Below are positions 15,026 to 46,164 of a stretch of 47,941 bases of DNA, one piece after another. Within the stretch, counting starts at the first letter, position 1; each line of letters begins with the position of its first letter. The DNA comes from a virus, in IMG/VR virus record IMGVR_UViG_3300022200_000077, positions 1 through 47,941 of that record; one strand, given 5' to 3'. The notes under the pieces are model-generated. The model was not told where the DNA came from, did not search any database, and was given only the letters and a program-made list of their open reading frames with translations. The position numbers were made by a program, and so were the translations under genes.

Positions 15026-15661
15026 ATGAACAAAACCATTTTAATAAACGAGGGTCAAAAAAAATTGATTTTAAAAGAATCAATTAATGATAGTTTTGGA
15101 GAAATAATTAAAGGTAGTTATGAATTTACCAAAAAAATTATAAAAATGTCTTCAGAACAAATGGGTATGAATTTAGAATTCTTACTAACATGGGGAGCTA
15201 GTATTGGTGGTTTTGTCGGTCCATTAAACGATTTTATTGCAGGTAAATTCCCTGAATTAAGTGATATGGAATTAAGTTTAATCATAACTGGTGTTATTTC
15301 GCTATACTATATTGATAATAAAGAAACCGTAAAAAAAATATTAGGTAAAATAAAAGAAGTAGGTTTGTATGATGAATTTGGCGTATTACTTAAAAAAAGT
15401 GGTGAGTTAAAAAGTACGTTTGTTGATTTTATTACAAGTTTAAATATAACCCTACATAAGGTAACAAATATTATGTCTTATGCATTTATAATACCAATTA
15501 TACCAATAATTTATGAATCAGTTAATAGTGGTGTTATAAGTTCTTCAGATTATAAAGAAATTGCGTTAAGACTAAGTTCTTTTGGTTTGTTAACCGTTGC
15601 TGGTGTTTTAGTTAGAGAGTTGTTTGGTAAATTAATTAAGAGATTTAGTAATCACCGTTAA
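15026..15661 (+). CDS. Tagged membrane protein
   Basis: 211 residues. The leader MNKTILINEGQKKLILKES is a clear form of the shared tag, with LKE as the possible processing site. Behind it are several hydrophobic segments: about 50-70 (FLLTWGASIGGFVGPL), 80-95, 145-168 (SYAFIIPIIPIIYESV) and 180-200 (LLTVAGVLVREL). The downstream end overlaps the convergent gene by 17 nt. Membrane proteins packaged with DNA could form an entry conduit; function otherwise unknown. Confidence 0.8.
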   Translation: MNKTILINEGQKKLILKESINDSFGEIIKGSYEFTKKIIKMSSEQMGMNLEFLLTWGASIGGFVGPLNDFIAGKFPELSDMELSLIITGVISLYYIDNKETVKKILGKIKEVGLYDEFGVLLKKSGELKSTFVDFITSLNITLHKVTNIMSYAFIIPIIPIIYESVNSGVISSSDYKEIALRLSSFGLLTVAGVLVRELFGKLIKRFSNHR

Positions 15662-25184: not shown

Positions 25185-27041
25185 ATGGGAAAGATTATAG
25201 GAATTGATTTAGGAACAACTAACTCTTGCGTCGCGGTTATGGAAGGGAGTGAACCTGTTGTGATAACAAATAGTGAAGGTAAAAGAACAACACCTTCCAT
25301 AGTAGGTTTTACTGGTTCAGGTGAAAGAAAAATTGGTGACCCCGCCAAAAGACAATCAATCACAAACCCTGAAAAAACAATTTACTCGATTAAAAGATTT
25401 ATGGGGACTTCATTTGAAGAGTCTAAAAATGAAGTTAAAAAAGTCCCTTACAAAGTTGTAAACCAAAAAAATAGTCCTCGAGTATCTATTGACGACAGGA
25501 TGTATTCACCACAAGAATTGTCCGCAGCGGTACTCCAAAAAATGAAACAAACCGCGGAAGACTATTTGGGGCAAAGTGTAACGGACGCGGTCATTACAGT
25601 ACCTGCGTATTTTAATGACTCCCAACGACAAGCAACTAAAGAAGCTGGTGAAATTGCGGGTCTTAACGTACTTCGTATTATTAACGAACCTACCGCGGCA
25701 GCTTTGGCGTATGGATTGGATAAAAAATCAAAAGACATGAAAATTGTTGTATTTGATTGTGGTGGTGGAACACATGACGTTTCAGTTCTTGATTTAGGTG
25801 ATGGAGTATTTGAAGTTTTATCGACGGATGGAGACACTCATTTAGGTGGTGATGATTTTGACCAAGTAATAATTGATTATTTATCGTCAGAATTCAAAAA
25901 AGAAAATGGTATTGATATCACTAAAGACCCAATGGCGTTACAACGTCTTCGTGAAGCTGCGGAAAAAGCTAAGATTGAGTTATCATCTTCACCAAGTACT
26001 GAAATTAATTTACCATACATTACCGCAGATTCTACAGGTCCAAAACATTTAGTTATAACACTTAATCGGGCTAAGTTTGAATCTTTAACCGAATCTTTGG
26101 TTAAAAGAACTATTAAACCTTGTGAAACCGCATTAAAAAATGCCAATCTAAATCCATCGGACATTGATGAAGTAATTTTGGTTGGCGGGTCAACACGTAT
26201 TCCCGCAGTCCAAGAAGCGGTTAAAAAGTTTTTTGGTAAAGAACCTTCTAAAGGTGTGAACCCTGATGAAGTTGTTGCTCTTGGCGCGGCAATTCAAGGC
26301 GGTGTATTAGGTGGTGACGTAACTGATGTATTATTATTAGATGTAACACCATTGTCTCTTGGTATTGAAACGATGGGTGGGGTTTTCACCAAACTTATTG
26401 AGTCAAATACAACAATCCCTACCAAAAAATCTGAAACTTTCTCAACGGCAGTTGATAACCAACCTTCAGTAGAAATTCACGTACTTCAAGGAGAAAGAAC
26501 AATGGCTAAAGATAACAGAACTATTGGTCGTTTCCACTTAGATGGTCTACCACCATCAATGAGGGGTGTTCCTAAAATTGAAGTTACTTTTGATATTGAT
26601 GCAAACGGTATTATTAATGTTTCGGCAATTGATAAGGCGACCAACAAACAACAATCAATCCGTATCGAATCGTCTTCAGGTCTTTCAAAAGAGGAAATTG
26701 AAAAAATGAAAATTGAAGCTGAACAAAACGCTGAGGCGGATATGAAGTTAAAAGAAGATGCCGATACACTTAACTCAGCAGATTCTTTATTGTTCCAAGT
26801 AAACAAGTCAATGAGTGATTTAGGGGATAAAATAAGTGAAGAACAAAAATTGGAAATTAATTCAACAATCGATAAGTTAAAGGAGTCACATAATCAGAAA
26901 AATGTTTCTGAAGTTAAAACTTTAATGGAGGAGTTAAATAGTAAATTCCAAAAAATTACTCAGGATTTATATGAAACCGCATCTGAAACTCAAGAAAACG
27001 ATTTTGATGCATCGGATGTTGAGTTTGAGGAAGTAAAATAA
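25185..27041 (+). CDS. dnaK: Chaperone DnaK (Hsp70)
   Basis: Full-length 618-residue Hsp70. The ATPase domain has [16 protein letters not shown], the [20 protein letters not shown] block, [15 protein letters not shown] and [12 protein letters not shown]. The substrate domain starts [13 protein letters not shown]. It ends in an acidic tail ([10 protein letters not shown]). An odd change: the phosphate-2 loop reads [10 protein letters not shown] at 191-200, where nearly all Hsp70s have DLGGGTFDVS. No dnaJ or grpE is visible, so it probably uses host co-chaperones or the UVR protein before it. Overall it resembles Bacteroidota DnaK, suggesting capture from a host. Confidence 0.97.
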
Positions 27042-29311: not shown

Positions 29312-29737
29312 ATGAAACAAATTGAAAATGGTGATAGTGTTAAAGTTCACTACACAGGAAAATTAGAGGACGGTACAATTTTTGACTCGTCTATGGTTGA
29401 AGGTAGAGAGCCTTTAGAAGTCGTATTGGGTAACAATATGTTGATTAAAGGTTTCGAGAATGGTCTTATGGGATTAACTGAGGGTGAAACTAAGACTATT
29501 GAAATTGAACCTTCCGATGCTTATGGTGAATATACCGAAGAAATGATTAATGAAATTCCAAGAGCTCAAGTACCTGAAAATGTACAGGTTGGTGAAAGAC
29601 TCCAAGGAATGAGTCCAATGGGTCCAATCAATGTTCATGTTATTGAAGTTAAAGATGACACTGTAGTGATTGATGCAAACCATCCTTTGGCAGGTAAAAA
29701 ATTGACTTTTGAAGTAGAAGTTATTAGTGTTAATTAA
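29312..29737 (+). CDS. FKBP-type peptidyl-prolyl isomerase, SlyD-like
   Basis: 141 residues. VKVHYTGKLEDGTIFDSS starts the FKBP domain, with LIKGFENGLMGLTEGETK completing its first half. An inserted IF (chaperone) domain follows (about 70-120), and DANHPLAGKKLTFEVEV near the C-terminus is the typical SlyD return strand. The histidine-rich nickel tail of E. coli SlyD is absent. Catalyses cis-trans isomerisation at proline and chaperones folding. Third proteostasis gene of the window with dnaK and clpP. Confidence 0.94.
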   Translation: MKQIENGDSVKVHYTGKLEDGTIFDSSMVEGREPLEVVLGNNMLIKGFENGLMGLTEGETKTIEIEPSDAYGEYTEEMINEIPRAQVPENVQVGERLQGMSPMGPINVHVIEVKDDTVVIDANHPLAGKKLTFEVEVISVN

Positions 29738-40934: not shown

Positions 40935-41282
40935 TTACCAATCAATTCCTGGACCCCAAGTTCGTTCATCAATAATTTCATAACCACTAAACTCAACACC
41001 AGGAAACCACGACTTAACGTAGTCCTCAACATGTGCGGTGACATTATCAAAATCGTATCTGTTTCTGTTTACATGAATACCAATATCAACAACAATAGGT
41101 TTACCCATACGAATATCTTTTACCACGATTTTATCAATCGATTCAACCTCATCAATCTCGTCCATTTCACCTAAACCCCAATCTTCAGACTCTTCTCTTA
41201 GTTCATTTAAAGCACCATCAATCAAATCCTGAATTATGGATTTCATTTTTTTGTGTTGTGATTCTGTTATGATTAGTTTCAT
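40935..41282 (-). CDS. Tagged acidic protein
   Basis: 115 residues. Tag MKLIITESQHKKMKSIIQDL, then GALNELREE as the likely site. A beta-type domain follows: IDKIVVKDIRMGKPIVVDIG, YDFDNVTAHVEDYVKSWFPG and a Trp-rich end. No catalytic motif. One of the cleanest examples of the tag. Confidence 0.8.
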   Translation of the reverse strand: MKLIITESQHKKMKSIIQDLIDGALNELREESEDWGLGEMDEIDEVESIDKIVVKDIRMGKPIVVDIGIHVNRNRYDFDNVTAHVEDYVKSWFPGVEFSGYEIIDERTWGPGIDW

Positions 41283-41295
41283 TAAGGTTTTTACT

Positions 41296-41302
41296 ATAAA
41301 TA
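41296..41302 (-). promoter_or_regulatory. TATTTAT box
   Basis: 13 nt before the ATG at 41282. Confidence 0.55.
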
Positions 41303-41662: not shown

Positions 41663-42517
41663 TTATCTATCAATATTAAATGATGAGGTATTATAACCCT
41701 TTTCTCCTAGTAAATCTCTTAAATATTGAGCAATTTCAGACTTTTTATTCCATCCAGTGTGTTGTCTAAAACCTAATTTAAGTTCAACAATATTACGTCC
41801 ATAGCTAATTTTTAATTGTCTATAGTCATTTGGGTACTTATCAGCCAACGCTCGTTTAATTACCCTACCTTCTTTTTTAACCCACTCATCAAAATTAAGT
41901 AAATTTGTCGTCCCATATATTGATAATTCACCAAAAATAGGTTTACCACGTTTAATACCCATGGTCTCTTCAATAAATCTAATTAAGGTACTACTTATTT
42001 TATTCGAAATTTGTTGGAGGGGTCTTTCAATACTAGTGTCTTTAACCGCTTGAATAAAATCAACATCGGCGATTACTGTAACATCATAAGGATTATCTTC
42101 AACAATACGAACATTAACATAATTAGGTAAATCCAACATTTTTATTCCAATATCTAAACCACGTTTGTGTTGTACTGAGAAATTCCTTTGTGACCTTAAA
42201 CTAGGTAATGAGTGTTTACCAAGTTTAACAATTTCTCTACCCGTTCTACTCATTAAACTTGTTTTACTACTATACCTGATAAATCCTGTATCAATACCCA
42301 TATCTTTACAAAATTCTTTAAGATACGTATTAAATAAGTAACTAAATGGTCTAGCACCAATTTCATCACCGTGTTTTGATTTAACCCACGGTCTAAAGTA
42401 AGTTAATAAAACCTCAATAAAATCTTCATCATCATAACCCGACAAATCAACATTCTCCAAAACTAAGTTTTTAGAGATTGCCAAATTATATTGAGATTCT
42501 GTAATAACAACTTTCAT
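41663..42517 (-). CDS. Tagged protein, function unknown
   Basis: 284 residues from ATG 42517, 4 nt behind the TATTTAT box; the open frame extends 8 codons further up. Tag MKVVITESQYNLAISKNLVL then ENV, site VLEN. The body is a large alpha/beta domain without known motif (VNVRIVEDNPYDVTVIADVD, RNIVELKLGFRQHTGW). Its first residues and its upstream DNA nearly equal those of the 42590-42919 gene while the bodies differ. Confidence 0.8.
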   Translation of the reverse strand: MKVVITESQYNLAISKNLVLENVDLSGYDDEDFIEVLLTYFRPWVKSKHGDEIGARPFSYLFNTYLKEFCKDMGIDTGFIRYSSKTSLMSRTGREIVKLGKHSLPSLRSQRNFSVQHKRGLDIGIKMLDLPNYVNVRIVEDNPYDVTVIADVDFIQAVKDTSIERPLQQISNKISSTLIRFIEETMGIKRGKPIFGELSIYGTTNLLNFDEWVKKEGRVIKRALADKYPNDYRQLKISYGRNIVELKLGFRQHTGWNKKSEIAQYLRDLLGEKGYNTSSFNIDR

Positions 42518-42521
42518 AACA

Positions 42522-42528
42522 ATAAATA
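42522..42528 (-). promoter_or_regulatory. TATTTAT box
   Basis: 4 nt before the ATG at 42517, within the block shared with 42924-42930. Confidence 0.58.
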
Positions 42529-42540
42529 TAATGATAAACA

Positions 42541-42568
42541 AAAAACCCCACCTGTTAAAGATGGGGTT
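42541..42568 (-). terminator. Terminator
   Basis: AACCCCACCT-GTTAA-AGATGGGGTT; nearly the same hairpin recurs at 46570-46597. Confidence 0.78.
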
Positions 42569-42589
42569 GATAATTTTGTTTTATTTAAA

Positions 42590-42919
42590 TTAGTCTTCGT
42601 CGTCGTAGTCCTCATCATCCTCATCATCACGACCAACAGAATCAAAAAATTCTTCAAATAATTGGTCGGAGTATAAGTCAATCATTAAATCACGAATCTC
42701 ACCATCTTCGTCCGCCTCATCAAGGCCAGCATCGGTGATTACCCAACTAATAATATTGTCTGTGTACTCAAATTCATCACCAAAATCGGATGGGTCAGTC
42801 TCTTCAATATATTTGTTAATTAAAGATTCAATTTCAGTCATTCTGCGAAGAAGATAACGGGGTAATCCAACGTTTTCCAAAATTAAATTATATTGAGATT
42901 CTGTAATAATAACTTTCAT
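42590..42919 (-). CDS. Tagged acidic protein
   Basis: 109 residues. Tag MKVIITESQYNLILENVGLP with LILEN as the site. The remainder is helical and increasingly acidic, ending DDEDDEDYDDED. Acidic short proteins with this tag could act in the capsid core. It is separated from its 41663-42517 neighbour by a terminator, so each is transcribed from its own box. Confidence 0.8.
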   Translation of the reverse strand: MKVIITESQYNLILENVGLPRYLLRRMTEIESLINKYIEETDPSDFGDEFEYTDNIISWVITDAGLDEADEDGEIRDLMIDLYSDQLFEEFFDSVGRDDEDDEDYDDED

Positions 42920-42923
42920 AATA

Positions 42924-42930
42924 ATAAATA
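42924..42930 (-). promoter_or_regulatory. TATTTAT box
   Basis: 4 nt before the ATG at 42919. Confidence 0.58.
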
Positions 42931-42937
42931 TAACAAA

Positions 42938-43318
42938 TTAAAGAATAGTTTTTATATCAAGTCCGAAATTTTCTTTAAACCATTCCTTGAAGACGGGTTT
43001 CCAATTGTCTCCAAACAGACTGTCTAATTTTTCTGAGTCACGAGAGTCCTCAAAATGTAACATGGGAGATTGTTCAATCCTATGTCTAAGTATTTCGGTA
43101 TCATCACCGTCCCAATAATCTTTACCGTACCATCTGAAAATGGTTCCGTCACCTTCATCATAATCGTAATCCCCAAAATAAAATATATACGAACTATCGT
43201 CAGGGTTTCCGTCATCATCATAACCTTCAGTATAGTTAATATCATCAACGGGATACGCTCCCTCAATGTAATTAAGGATGAGGTTGTGTAATCTATTTTC
43301 TGTGATAATTAATTTCAT
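42938..43318 (-). CDS. Tagged acidic protein, paralog of the next gene
   Basis: 126 residues. Tag MKLIITENRLHNLILNYIEG, a very acidic Tyr/Asp middle (YFGDYDYDEGDGTIFRWYG), then LDSLFGDNWKPVFKEWFKEN and FGLDIKTIL. Alignment by eye with 43318-43689 shows the same order of blocks (YIEG/YIDG, SLFGDNWKPVF/SMFGHRWKPVF). It begins on the last base of the upstream stop (TAATG type overlap). Confidence 0.8.
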   Translation of the reverse strand: MKLIITENRLHNLILNYIEGAYPVDDINYTEGYDDDGNPDDSSYIFYFGDYDYDEGDGTIFRWYGKDYWDGDDTEILRHRIEQSPMLHFEDSRDSEKLDSLFGDNWKPVFKEWFKENFGLDIKTIL

Positions 43319-43689
43319 TAGTATATTGTTGTTACTGGTAAATCAAATTTATCAATAAACCATTGTTTGAATACGGGTTTCCATCTATGACCGAACATAC
43401 TATTTAATTCTTTTTCGGGGTAAGTCATTACCTCAACAATGGGTGACATATCAACAAGTCTCTGATGACGTTCCTTATCTTTTTTGATATGTTTATTACT
43501 GTTATAGTAATCAGCACTTGTCCAAGTAAATAAGTAATCACCATCGTAGTCGTCAAGGAAGAAATCGTAAGCACCGACCAATTCACCATCGTTACCCAAA
43601 GCTTTAGACATATTCACATCACCAAGTACACCATCAATGTAGTTATATATGGCTTTCTCTAACTTATTTTCGGTGATGATTATTTTCAT
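43318..43689 (-). CDS. Tagged acidic protein, paralog of the previous gene
   Basis: 123 residues. Tag MKIIITENKLEKAIYNYIDG, acidic middle (YDFFLDDYDGDYLFTWTSAD), and the common end NSMFGHRWKPVFKQWFIDKF with DLPVTTIY. First gene of the pair; only it has a TATTTAT box, so both are made from one transcript. Tag identity with unrelated genes is higher than in their bodies. Confidence 0.8.
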   Translation of the reverse strand: MKIIITENKLEKAIYNYIDGVLGDVNMSKALGNDGELVGAYDFFLDDYDGDYLFTWTSADYYNSNKHIKKDKERHQRLVDMSPIVEVMTYPEKELNSMFGHRWKPVFKQWFIDKFDLPVTTIY

Positions 43690-43693
43690 ATCA

Positions 43694-43700
43694 ATAAATA
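43694..43700 (-). promoter_or_regulatory. TATTTAT box
   Basis: 4 nt before the ATG at 43689. Confidence 0.55.
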
Positions 43701-45774: not shown

Positions 45775-46164
45775 TTAAGATATCTTTGTAAGAATTATTT
45801 TACCTAGACTTCCACCCATTGAAAATGTGGCTTTTCCATTACCATTCTTAATAGCGTTATCAACATCATCTTTATCAAAAGTTTTTGTTTGACCTTTATT
45901 AGTTGTAAATTTATAATTTTTACCGTACCAAGCACCATCCACTTCTTCAATACTTGATATAGCGACAGGACCTGTGTAAACAGGAGATTCAATTTTGGTT
46001 TTATAAAGATGTCCACCTATTTTTATATTAGCTTTACCAGTTGTTGTCACTTTAACTCCACCCATAGTCGTAGTAGTTTCTTTTATTACTATTTTCTCTT
46101 CAGAGATAACTCTTTTAACTAAGTTTATTAGTTCGGATTCTGTAAGTCTAACTATTTTTTTCAT
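45775..46164 (-). CDS. Tagged beta-rich protein
   Basis: 129 residues. Tag MKKIVRLTESELINLVKRVI then SEE, the most typical long form of the leader, with ISEE as the site. The body is glycine-, threonine- and lysine-rich beta structure (TTMGGVKVTTTGKANIKIGG, YKFTTNKGQTKTFDKDDVDN). No enzyme motif. The cleavage product would be a small beta domain of about 105 residues. Confidence 0.8.
   Translation of the reverse strand: MKKIVRLTESELINLVKRVISEEKIVIKETTTTMGGVKVTTTGKANIKIGGHLYKTKIESPVYTGPVAISSIEEVDGAWYGKNYKFTTNKGQTKTFDKDDVDNAIKNGNGKATFSMGGSLGKIILTKIS

Follow-up and report, generated by a model that had tools for sequence, protein, structure and literature searches.

A short modular N-terminal tag on unrelated proteins of T4-related phages, a probable capsid-targeting-like leader

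The window, i.e., the whole stretch of DNA analysed here, is the 47,941-bp viral record IMGVR_UViG_3300022200_000077, a fragment with 31% GC. Five neighboring genes on its minus strand begin with MK(V/L/I)(V/I)ITE(S/N), with ATG codons at 41282, 42517, 42919, 43318 and 43689. Gene 1 (41663–42517 in the ORF list, 284 aa) has the leader MKVVITESQYNLAISKNLVLENVD (42446–42517), in which I-T-E occupies residues 5–7 and V-L-E residues 19–21. A late-type promoter box, TATTTAT (42522–42528), lies 4 nt before its ATG, and a leaderless mRNA is predicted. Gene 2 (42590–42919, from the ORF list and alignment) encodes an acidic protein of 109 aa with the leader MKVIITESQYNLILENVGLP (42860–42919), which has I-T-E at residues 5–7 and I-L-E at residues 13–15, and again a TATTTAT box (42924–42930) 4 nt before the ATG. 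The two genes are separated by a terminator-like hairpin, AACCCCATCTTTAACAGGTGGGGTT TTTTG, which runs on the minus strand from 42568 to 42544 and leaves about 25 nt for the gene 1 promoter. The TTG at 42541, proposed by the mechanical ORF call, is an unlikely start.

The other three tagged genes are also on the minus strand. Gene MKLIITESQHKKM (40935–41282, 115 aa) has a box at 41296–41302, 13 nt before the ATG, and gene MKIIITENKLEK (43318–43689, 123 aa) has one at 43694–43700, 4 nt before the ATG. Gene MKLIITENRLHN (42938–43318, 126 aa) is operon-internal, with an ATG that overlaps the stop codon of the gene before it, and for that reason has no TATTTAT. Elsewhere in the window, a plus-strand gene (15026–15661) with a box 6 nt before its ATG has the variant leader MNKTILINEGQKKLILKE, its body being found with MKIIITESQYKKILFE in other contigs, and a minus-strand gene (45775–46164) has a third leader type, MKKIVRLTESELINLVKRVISEE; the protein with this third leader gave no match in INPHARED. 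PHROGs and Pfam returned little for the window proteins. Two further open reading frames read like a full-length DnaK chaperone (25185–27041) and an FKBP-type isomerase (29312–29737); these are either phage-borne chaperones or host DNA.

The first-pass annotation of this DNA had described promoter box, start codon and tag as an almost identical block of about 45 bp in front of genes 1 and 2, and alignment bears this out. The first 36 coding nucleotides are identical at 34 positions, 14 of 20 upstream nucleotides agree, and the same codon is used at 9 of 10 shared residues, with 5.2 expected from codon usage. Among all pairs of the 84 ORF starts in the window (−40 to +48, self and overlapping frames set aside), this pair gave the top local alignment, with a score of 43 and the next at 28. 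The block is somewhat longer than proposed: it extends from about 14 nt upstream of the ATG to about codon 22, where an 18-nt insertion in gene 1 marks its end and the bodies diverge. BLASTP aligns the two proteins only as far as residue 28 of gene 1 and residue 22 of gene 2, and therefore both the leader-length block and the unrelated bodies are real. The best reading of the block is recent local copying that took in the adjoining box.

Weaker copies of the block had also been proposed before 41282, 43318 and 43689. The boxes at 41282 and 43689 are present, as given above, and DNA-level likeness of the tag is absent: 41282 shares 4 of 6–7 codons with the pair (3.2–3.6 expected from codon usage), and for 43689 the figure is 2 of 4–5 (2.2–2.6 expected). 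All three genes have the tag in common with the pair as protein only. Among themselves, the genes at 43318 and 43689 resemble a pair of paralogues.

To place these genes among relatives, tagged loci were gathered from IMG/VR by a degenerate tag-pattern search, which yielded at least 119 stretches, many on contigs of 100–380 kb. Three of them (L006, L008 and L090) come from one contig that is 99–100% identical to the window across these genes. Counts are approximate, because the tag pattern decided which loci were included, gene calls were mechanical (longest ATG) and the set includes contigs that are related to each other. The consensus tag is MKIIITESQY, with the pattern MK(I/L/V)(I/V)ITESQY. 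When the tagged proteins were clustered by body after removal of the first 14 residues, at least 64 clusters were obtained, so the tag is indeed modular. Most bodies belong to no recognizable family; those that do include an RNA polymerase sigma factor, a tRNA nucleotidyltransferase, an M23 peptidase, a phage lysozyme and a DHH plus SET protein, with weak matches to PARP-like and SprT-like domains. PADLOC, run on the tagged proteins, found one weak Cas3-like match.

Several arrangements of tagged genes deserve mention in their own right. The sigma-70-like factor (regions 2 and 4) at L035:6783-7346:- has both the tag and a late box, and may be injected to set off transcription in the next host cell. 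Two tagged proteins with a YHG motif (L018:3588-4127:- and L018:2154-3014:-), the first with a weak PARP match, bring to mind the ADP-ribosyltransferases that other phages package, T4 Alt for example. In three contigs the tag occurs twice in tandem within one ORF (MKLVITESQYNRVFNKIKTKLVITESQYNKILLES...), at L028:10524-12053:+, at L067:42-2057:- and on the minus strand of L078. L012 (957-4286), L010 and L009 contain rows of tagged genes on one strand, mostly with a box on the first gene only, which face opposite-strand genes with another leader type (MNLQESIRRILREE).

The genomic context suggests that the viruses are a lineage of large T4-related phages. The head cluster of the relatives is T4-like, with equivalents of gp17, gp20, gp21, gp22 and gp23 named by order and similarity. 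The nearest isolates by capsid protein include Flavobacterium phage immuto, and this nearness, together with TAnnTTTG-type promoters, suggests Bacteroidetes as the host group; this assignment is provisional, since a Microcystis phage lies just as close. Among annotated isolates immuto is the nearest, and it carries related leaders of the (I/L)xE type, e.g., MENFDLKKFLVENR and MKKSQLRQIIKEA, with only a weak TATTTAT signal; a literature search found nothing on its virion proteins. The MKxIITES pattern is absent from the huge phages LR745206 and LR756502, whose DHH proteins bear other leaders ending in FINE.

The tag is often followed by a second motif of the type (I/L)xE. Between residues 11 and 20, [IL]xE was present in 36 of 62 tag representatives, whereas shuffling gave 8.9 (at most 17 in 2000 shuffles) and [IL]xD was present in 9. 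It is E, not D, that is enriched at this junction, although helix propensity could lie behind part of the preference. The other 26 representatives have no second [IL]xE; the I-T-E within the tag also has this form, and the distal V-L-E of gene 1 is not a strict one. An independent comparison used genes without the MKxIITE tag, chosen solely as box-bearing heads of transcription units. These had [IL]xE in residues 5–24 in 68% of cases, as compared with 29% of genes with host-type TAnnTTTG promoters (P = 2e-9), and the two groups did not differ in [IL]xD, nor farther along the protein.

A protease that would recognize this motif is encoded by relatives. Peptidase_S77 (PF03420, the gp21 family) was found within T4-like head clusters in 14 of 28 related records, and was not found in the other half, many of which are fragments. 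The major capsid proteins of the relatives have LINE↓A or LISE↓T at the T4 gp23 cleavage position. In the window itself, a 48-kb fragment of which part of the genes were scanned, no gp21 or gp23 gene was recognized, and the link to the protease runs through the relatives. T4 gp21 cleaves after L/I-X-E, and Asp at P1 stops processing; ten N-terminal residues of IPIII, the T4 capsid-targeting sequence (CTS), are enough for capsid targeting (PMC9026906). With the (I/L)xE junction and the gp21-type protease of the relatives, our best guess by analogy is that the tagged proteins are packaged cargo, as the first-pass annotation had predicted.

Structure prediction fits a leader that stands apart from the body. 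In the AlphaFold model of gene 1 the body is modelled and residues 1–22 have pLDDT below 50, which disfavors the idea that the tag is part of the fold; the gene 2 model, in which the leader is modelled with moderate confidence (pLDDT around 60), is not decisive. A fold search with gene 1 gave no usable match in the PDB (best E 3.3e-3, TM about 0.2–0.3) and one uncharacterized phage protein in BFVD (E 3.5e-4).

Unlikely, yet the strongest of the alternatives, is that the tag is never cut and acts as a docking motif, a short strand plus helix that would direct late proteins to some other assembly site (e.g., tail or baseplate) or to a common phage partner, with the glutamate lying in an amphipathic helix. 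Residues 8–10 (SQY), just after the first I-T-E, are also strongly conserved, and a helix is predicted at residues 7–17, both of which would suit docking. The same holds for the lytic or cell-wall enzymes among the bodies, and these (lysozyme, M23) count against packaging, which they do not require. What docking leaves unexplained is the choice of E over D at the junction, the recurrence of the motif at the cleavage position of the major capsid protein, the gp21-type protease in relatives, and the fixed distance from this glutamate to the body under leaders of unequal length.

This last feature became apparent where one body was found with several leaders. The gene 1 body (YDDEDF...) is kept in five other viral contigs, with MKYIITESHLNHYLRIIAEQ and similar leaders in L009–L012 and MKKTLTLTESELIKVINRIVES in L082 instead of MKVVITESQYNLAISKNLVLENVD, and (I/L/V)xE lies 6–9 residues ahead of the body under every leader. 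A body with the motif YMFF occurs with five different leaders, the junction glutamate again being 6–9 residues ahead of the motif, and the DHH body with leaders of 7, 11 and 16 residues and a nearly fixed glutamate position. In the YDDEDF, YMFF, DHH and SprT-like families alike, different leaders on one body meet at (I/L/V)xE. The leader of gene 1 resembles that of its neighbor and not those of its orthologues, as local copying predicts.

These leader exchanges also bear on plain gene duplication, in which genes 1 and 2 would be paralogues with bodies diverged past recognition. The two genes are adjacent on the same strand, and arrays of tagged genes do hold true paralogues (43318/43689 and L048). 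Duplication is nevertheless improbable, since the gene 1 body persists in contigs where its leaders differ from that of the window, the BLASTP match to gene 2 halts at residue 28, and gene 2 itself resembles other tagged proteins, which in an alignment share its tag and its arginine-pair motif, L.RR. L048 illustrates how leader and body part company. It has three tandem minus-strand paralogues with up to 54 consecutive identical bases at the start of the body, one of them with a different leader, and a sharp DNA breakpoint at the leader/body border. In the two that share the tag, a count by eye gave differences in about half of the shared tag codons but in only 1 of the 24 codons shared by the bodies. 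The expectation that the tag would be more alike than the body at synonymous sites is therefore reversed in L048, where body DNA is near-identical and tag codons have diverged or the leader has been exchanged. The L048 paralogues contain repeated leucine-rich-like units (SLGNLQSVGG), and these internal repeats may drive recombination.

At a broader scale, the synonymous-site comparison gave different answers between and within contigs. When tags on different bodies were compared between contigs, codons were identical at 58.5% of shared residues, as against 59.4% in ordinary start regions of the same contigs; this codon-usage background indicates that the tag is kept by selection on the protein. 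Tag serine codons swap between TCN and AGY. Within contigs, tag codon identity was 0.673 versus 0.587 after permutation, beyond the maximum (0.6375) of 300 label permutations, and local DNA copying therefore occurs. The copies include the box in the 42517/42919 pair and in L036, and have no common upstream DNA in L073, L037 and L047. The best reading is that the leader spreads through local copying and that the box is occasionally transferred along with it.

The box itself appears from its distribution to be a phage-wide promoter-like element. In tagged and untagged genes, sense TATTTAT peaks at 4–6 and 13–17 nt before the ATG, with few at 7–12, and the antisense word ATAAATA is flat with no peak before the ATG; mere AT richness is thereby ruled out. 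Bases 5–7 after the box are AAA in the 13–17 class (91, 92 and 87% A) and the ATG itself in the 4–6 class. The simplest reading of this shared offset is a transcription start 5–7 nt past the box, which would make the mRNA leaderless or give it a leader of about 8–12 nt. In relatives (L144–L149) the box stands in front of the genes for portal, terminase, protease and tail sheath, and on that basis we infer that it is late.

As had been proposed, tagged genes are tied to this late-type promoter: the box is present at 51 of 58 (88%) tagged genes that head a transcription unit, versus 31% of untagged heads and 2% in a control interval, and the test agrees when redone at cluster level. Among operon-internal genes the box is as frequent with the tag (17%) as without it (18%). 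The proposal that signal and tag move together fails as a rule, because about two thirds of tagged genes are operon-internal and mostly boxless, most box-bearing genes are untagged, and the L073, L037 and L047 copies lack common upstream DNA. Box and tag are thus linked yet separable, associated via late expression and not welded together. Least probable of all is that the DNA block is the functional unit, a promoter plus a downstream translation or transcription element of a leaderless mRNA with the peptide as by-product: the pair does share box, ATG and first codons, many genes have the box 4–6 nt from the ATG and tag codons are shared in excess within contigs, but operon-internal tags lack the box, synonymous identity between contigs is that of ordinary start regions, serine codons swap and untagged genes use the same box.

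We conclude that the tag is probably a cleavable leader of T4-related phages, similar to the T4 capsid-targeting sequence, with swappable bodies. A leader of about 7–21 residues, MKxIITESQYxxL-[IL]-x-E or an equivalent (M[NS]LQESIRRILREE or MKKIxxLTESxLxxLVKRVIxE), would be fused to many unrelated bodies and steer them into the prohead core, where the gp21-type prohead protease of the phage would then cut after (I/L)xE. Expression would be late, from the TATTTAT promoter, with transcription starting 5–7 nt downstream and often at the A of the ATG, which would yield a leaderless mRNA. Leaders pass by copying from gene to gene within a genome, and a body can have its leader exchanged for another. 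The sequences themselves show the modularity, the junction motif, the promoter geometry and the protease genes of relatives, and the steps that we infer here are the late timing of expression, leader cleavage, packaging and injection; a search of the literature found no virion proteomics and no mapped 5' ends for these phages. More tentatively, a T4-related lineage of Bacteroidetes phages may load dozens of unrelated proteins, including a sigma factor and a tRNA nucleotidyltransferase, into the capsid for injection by means of one exchangeable cleavable leader and late leaderless expression, the leaders spreading via local gene conversion, sometimes with the promoter.

The closest known parallel is the T4 CTS and the T-even internal proteins. 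In both systems a short N-terminal leader with an (I/L)xE junction is found on unrelated bodies, T4-like head genes and a gp21-type protease (here in relatives) are accompanied by polymorphic gene arrays, and DNA is reshuffled near the leader, as the T-even loci reportedly are. The leader here (MKxIITESQY) is, however, unrelated in sequence; the T4 leader is MKTYQEFIAEA, which has only MK and the junction in common with the consensus MKIIITESQY. Other differences are the presence of at least three leader types and at least 64 body clusters including enzymes, the TATTTAT promoter with predicted leaderless mRNAs, the separability of promoter and leader, and the other host group. The present system is known from sequence, with packaging predicted, whereas the T-even internal proteins are injected anti-restriction factors (PMC12373910); their loci were treated by Repoila et al. 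(1994, as cited in PMC12373910 and PMC3012670).

The box can likewise be compared with the T4 late promoter (TATAAATA, gp55 sigma). Both have an A-T rich, octamer-like −10 element, no clear −35 hexamer, and head and tail genes downstream. The sense motif here, A-TATTTAT, is instead the reverse complement of the T4 motif core, so that the sense strand has a motif other than TATAAATA. The predicted start here lies 5–7 nt downstream, often without a 5' leader. Ejection proteins of phiKZ and SPN3US offer a further parallel, as these are large phages with a glutamate-specific prohead protease and many processed head proteins, and their ejection-protein propeptides are cut after x-x-E (PMC9026906). 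Those propeptides are not described as a single short leader shared by many unrelated cargo genes, and the protease here matches the T4 gp21 family PF03420. Neither the tag strings nor the leaders were described in the literature searched; since most subscription journals fell outside the search, this is weak evidence that they are new.

The results hint at an extensive system of interchangeable cargo, comparable to the internal proteins that phage T4 injects. If this is true, the leader would be a sequence handle that predicts virion cargo among unknown genes from DNA alone. For phages of hosts in which mRNAs are without Shine-Dalgarno signals (PMC6847099), the system would also offer a case in which leaderless late transcription can be tested, and the genomes would hold a natural record of leader swapping in which the breakpoints are visible.
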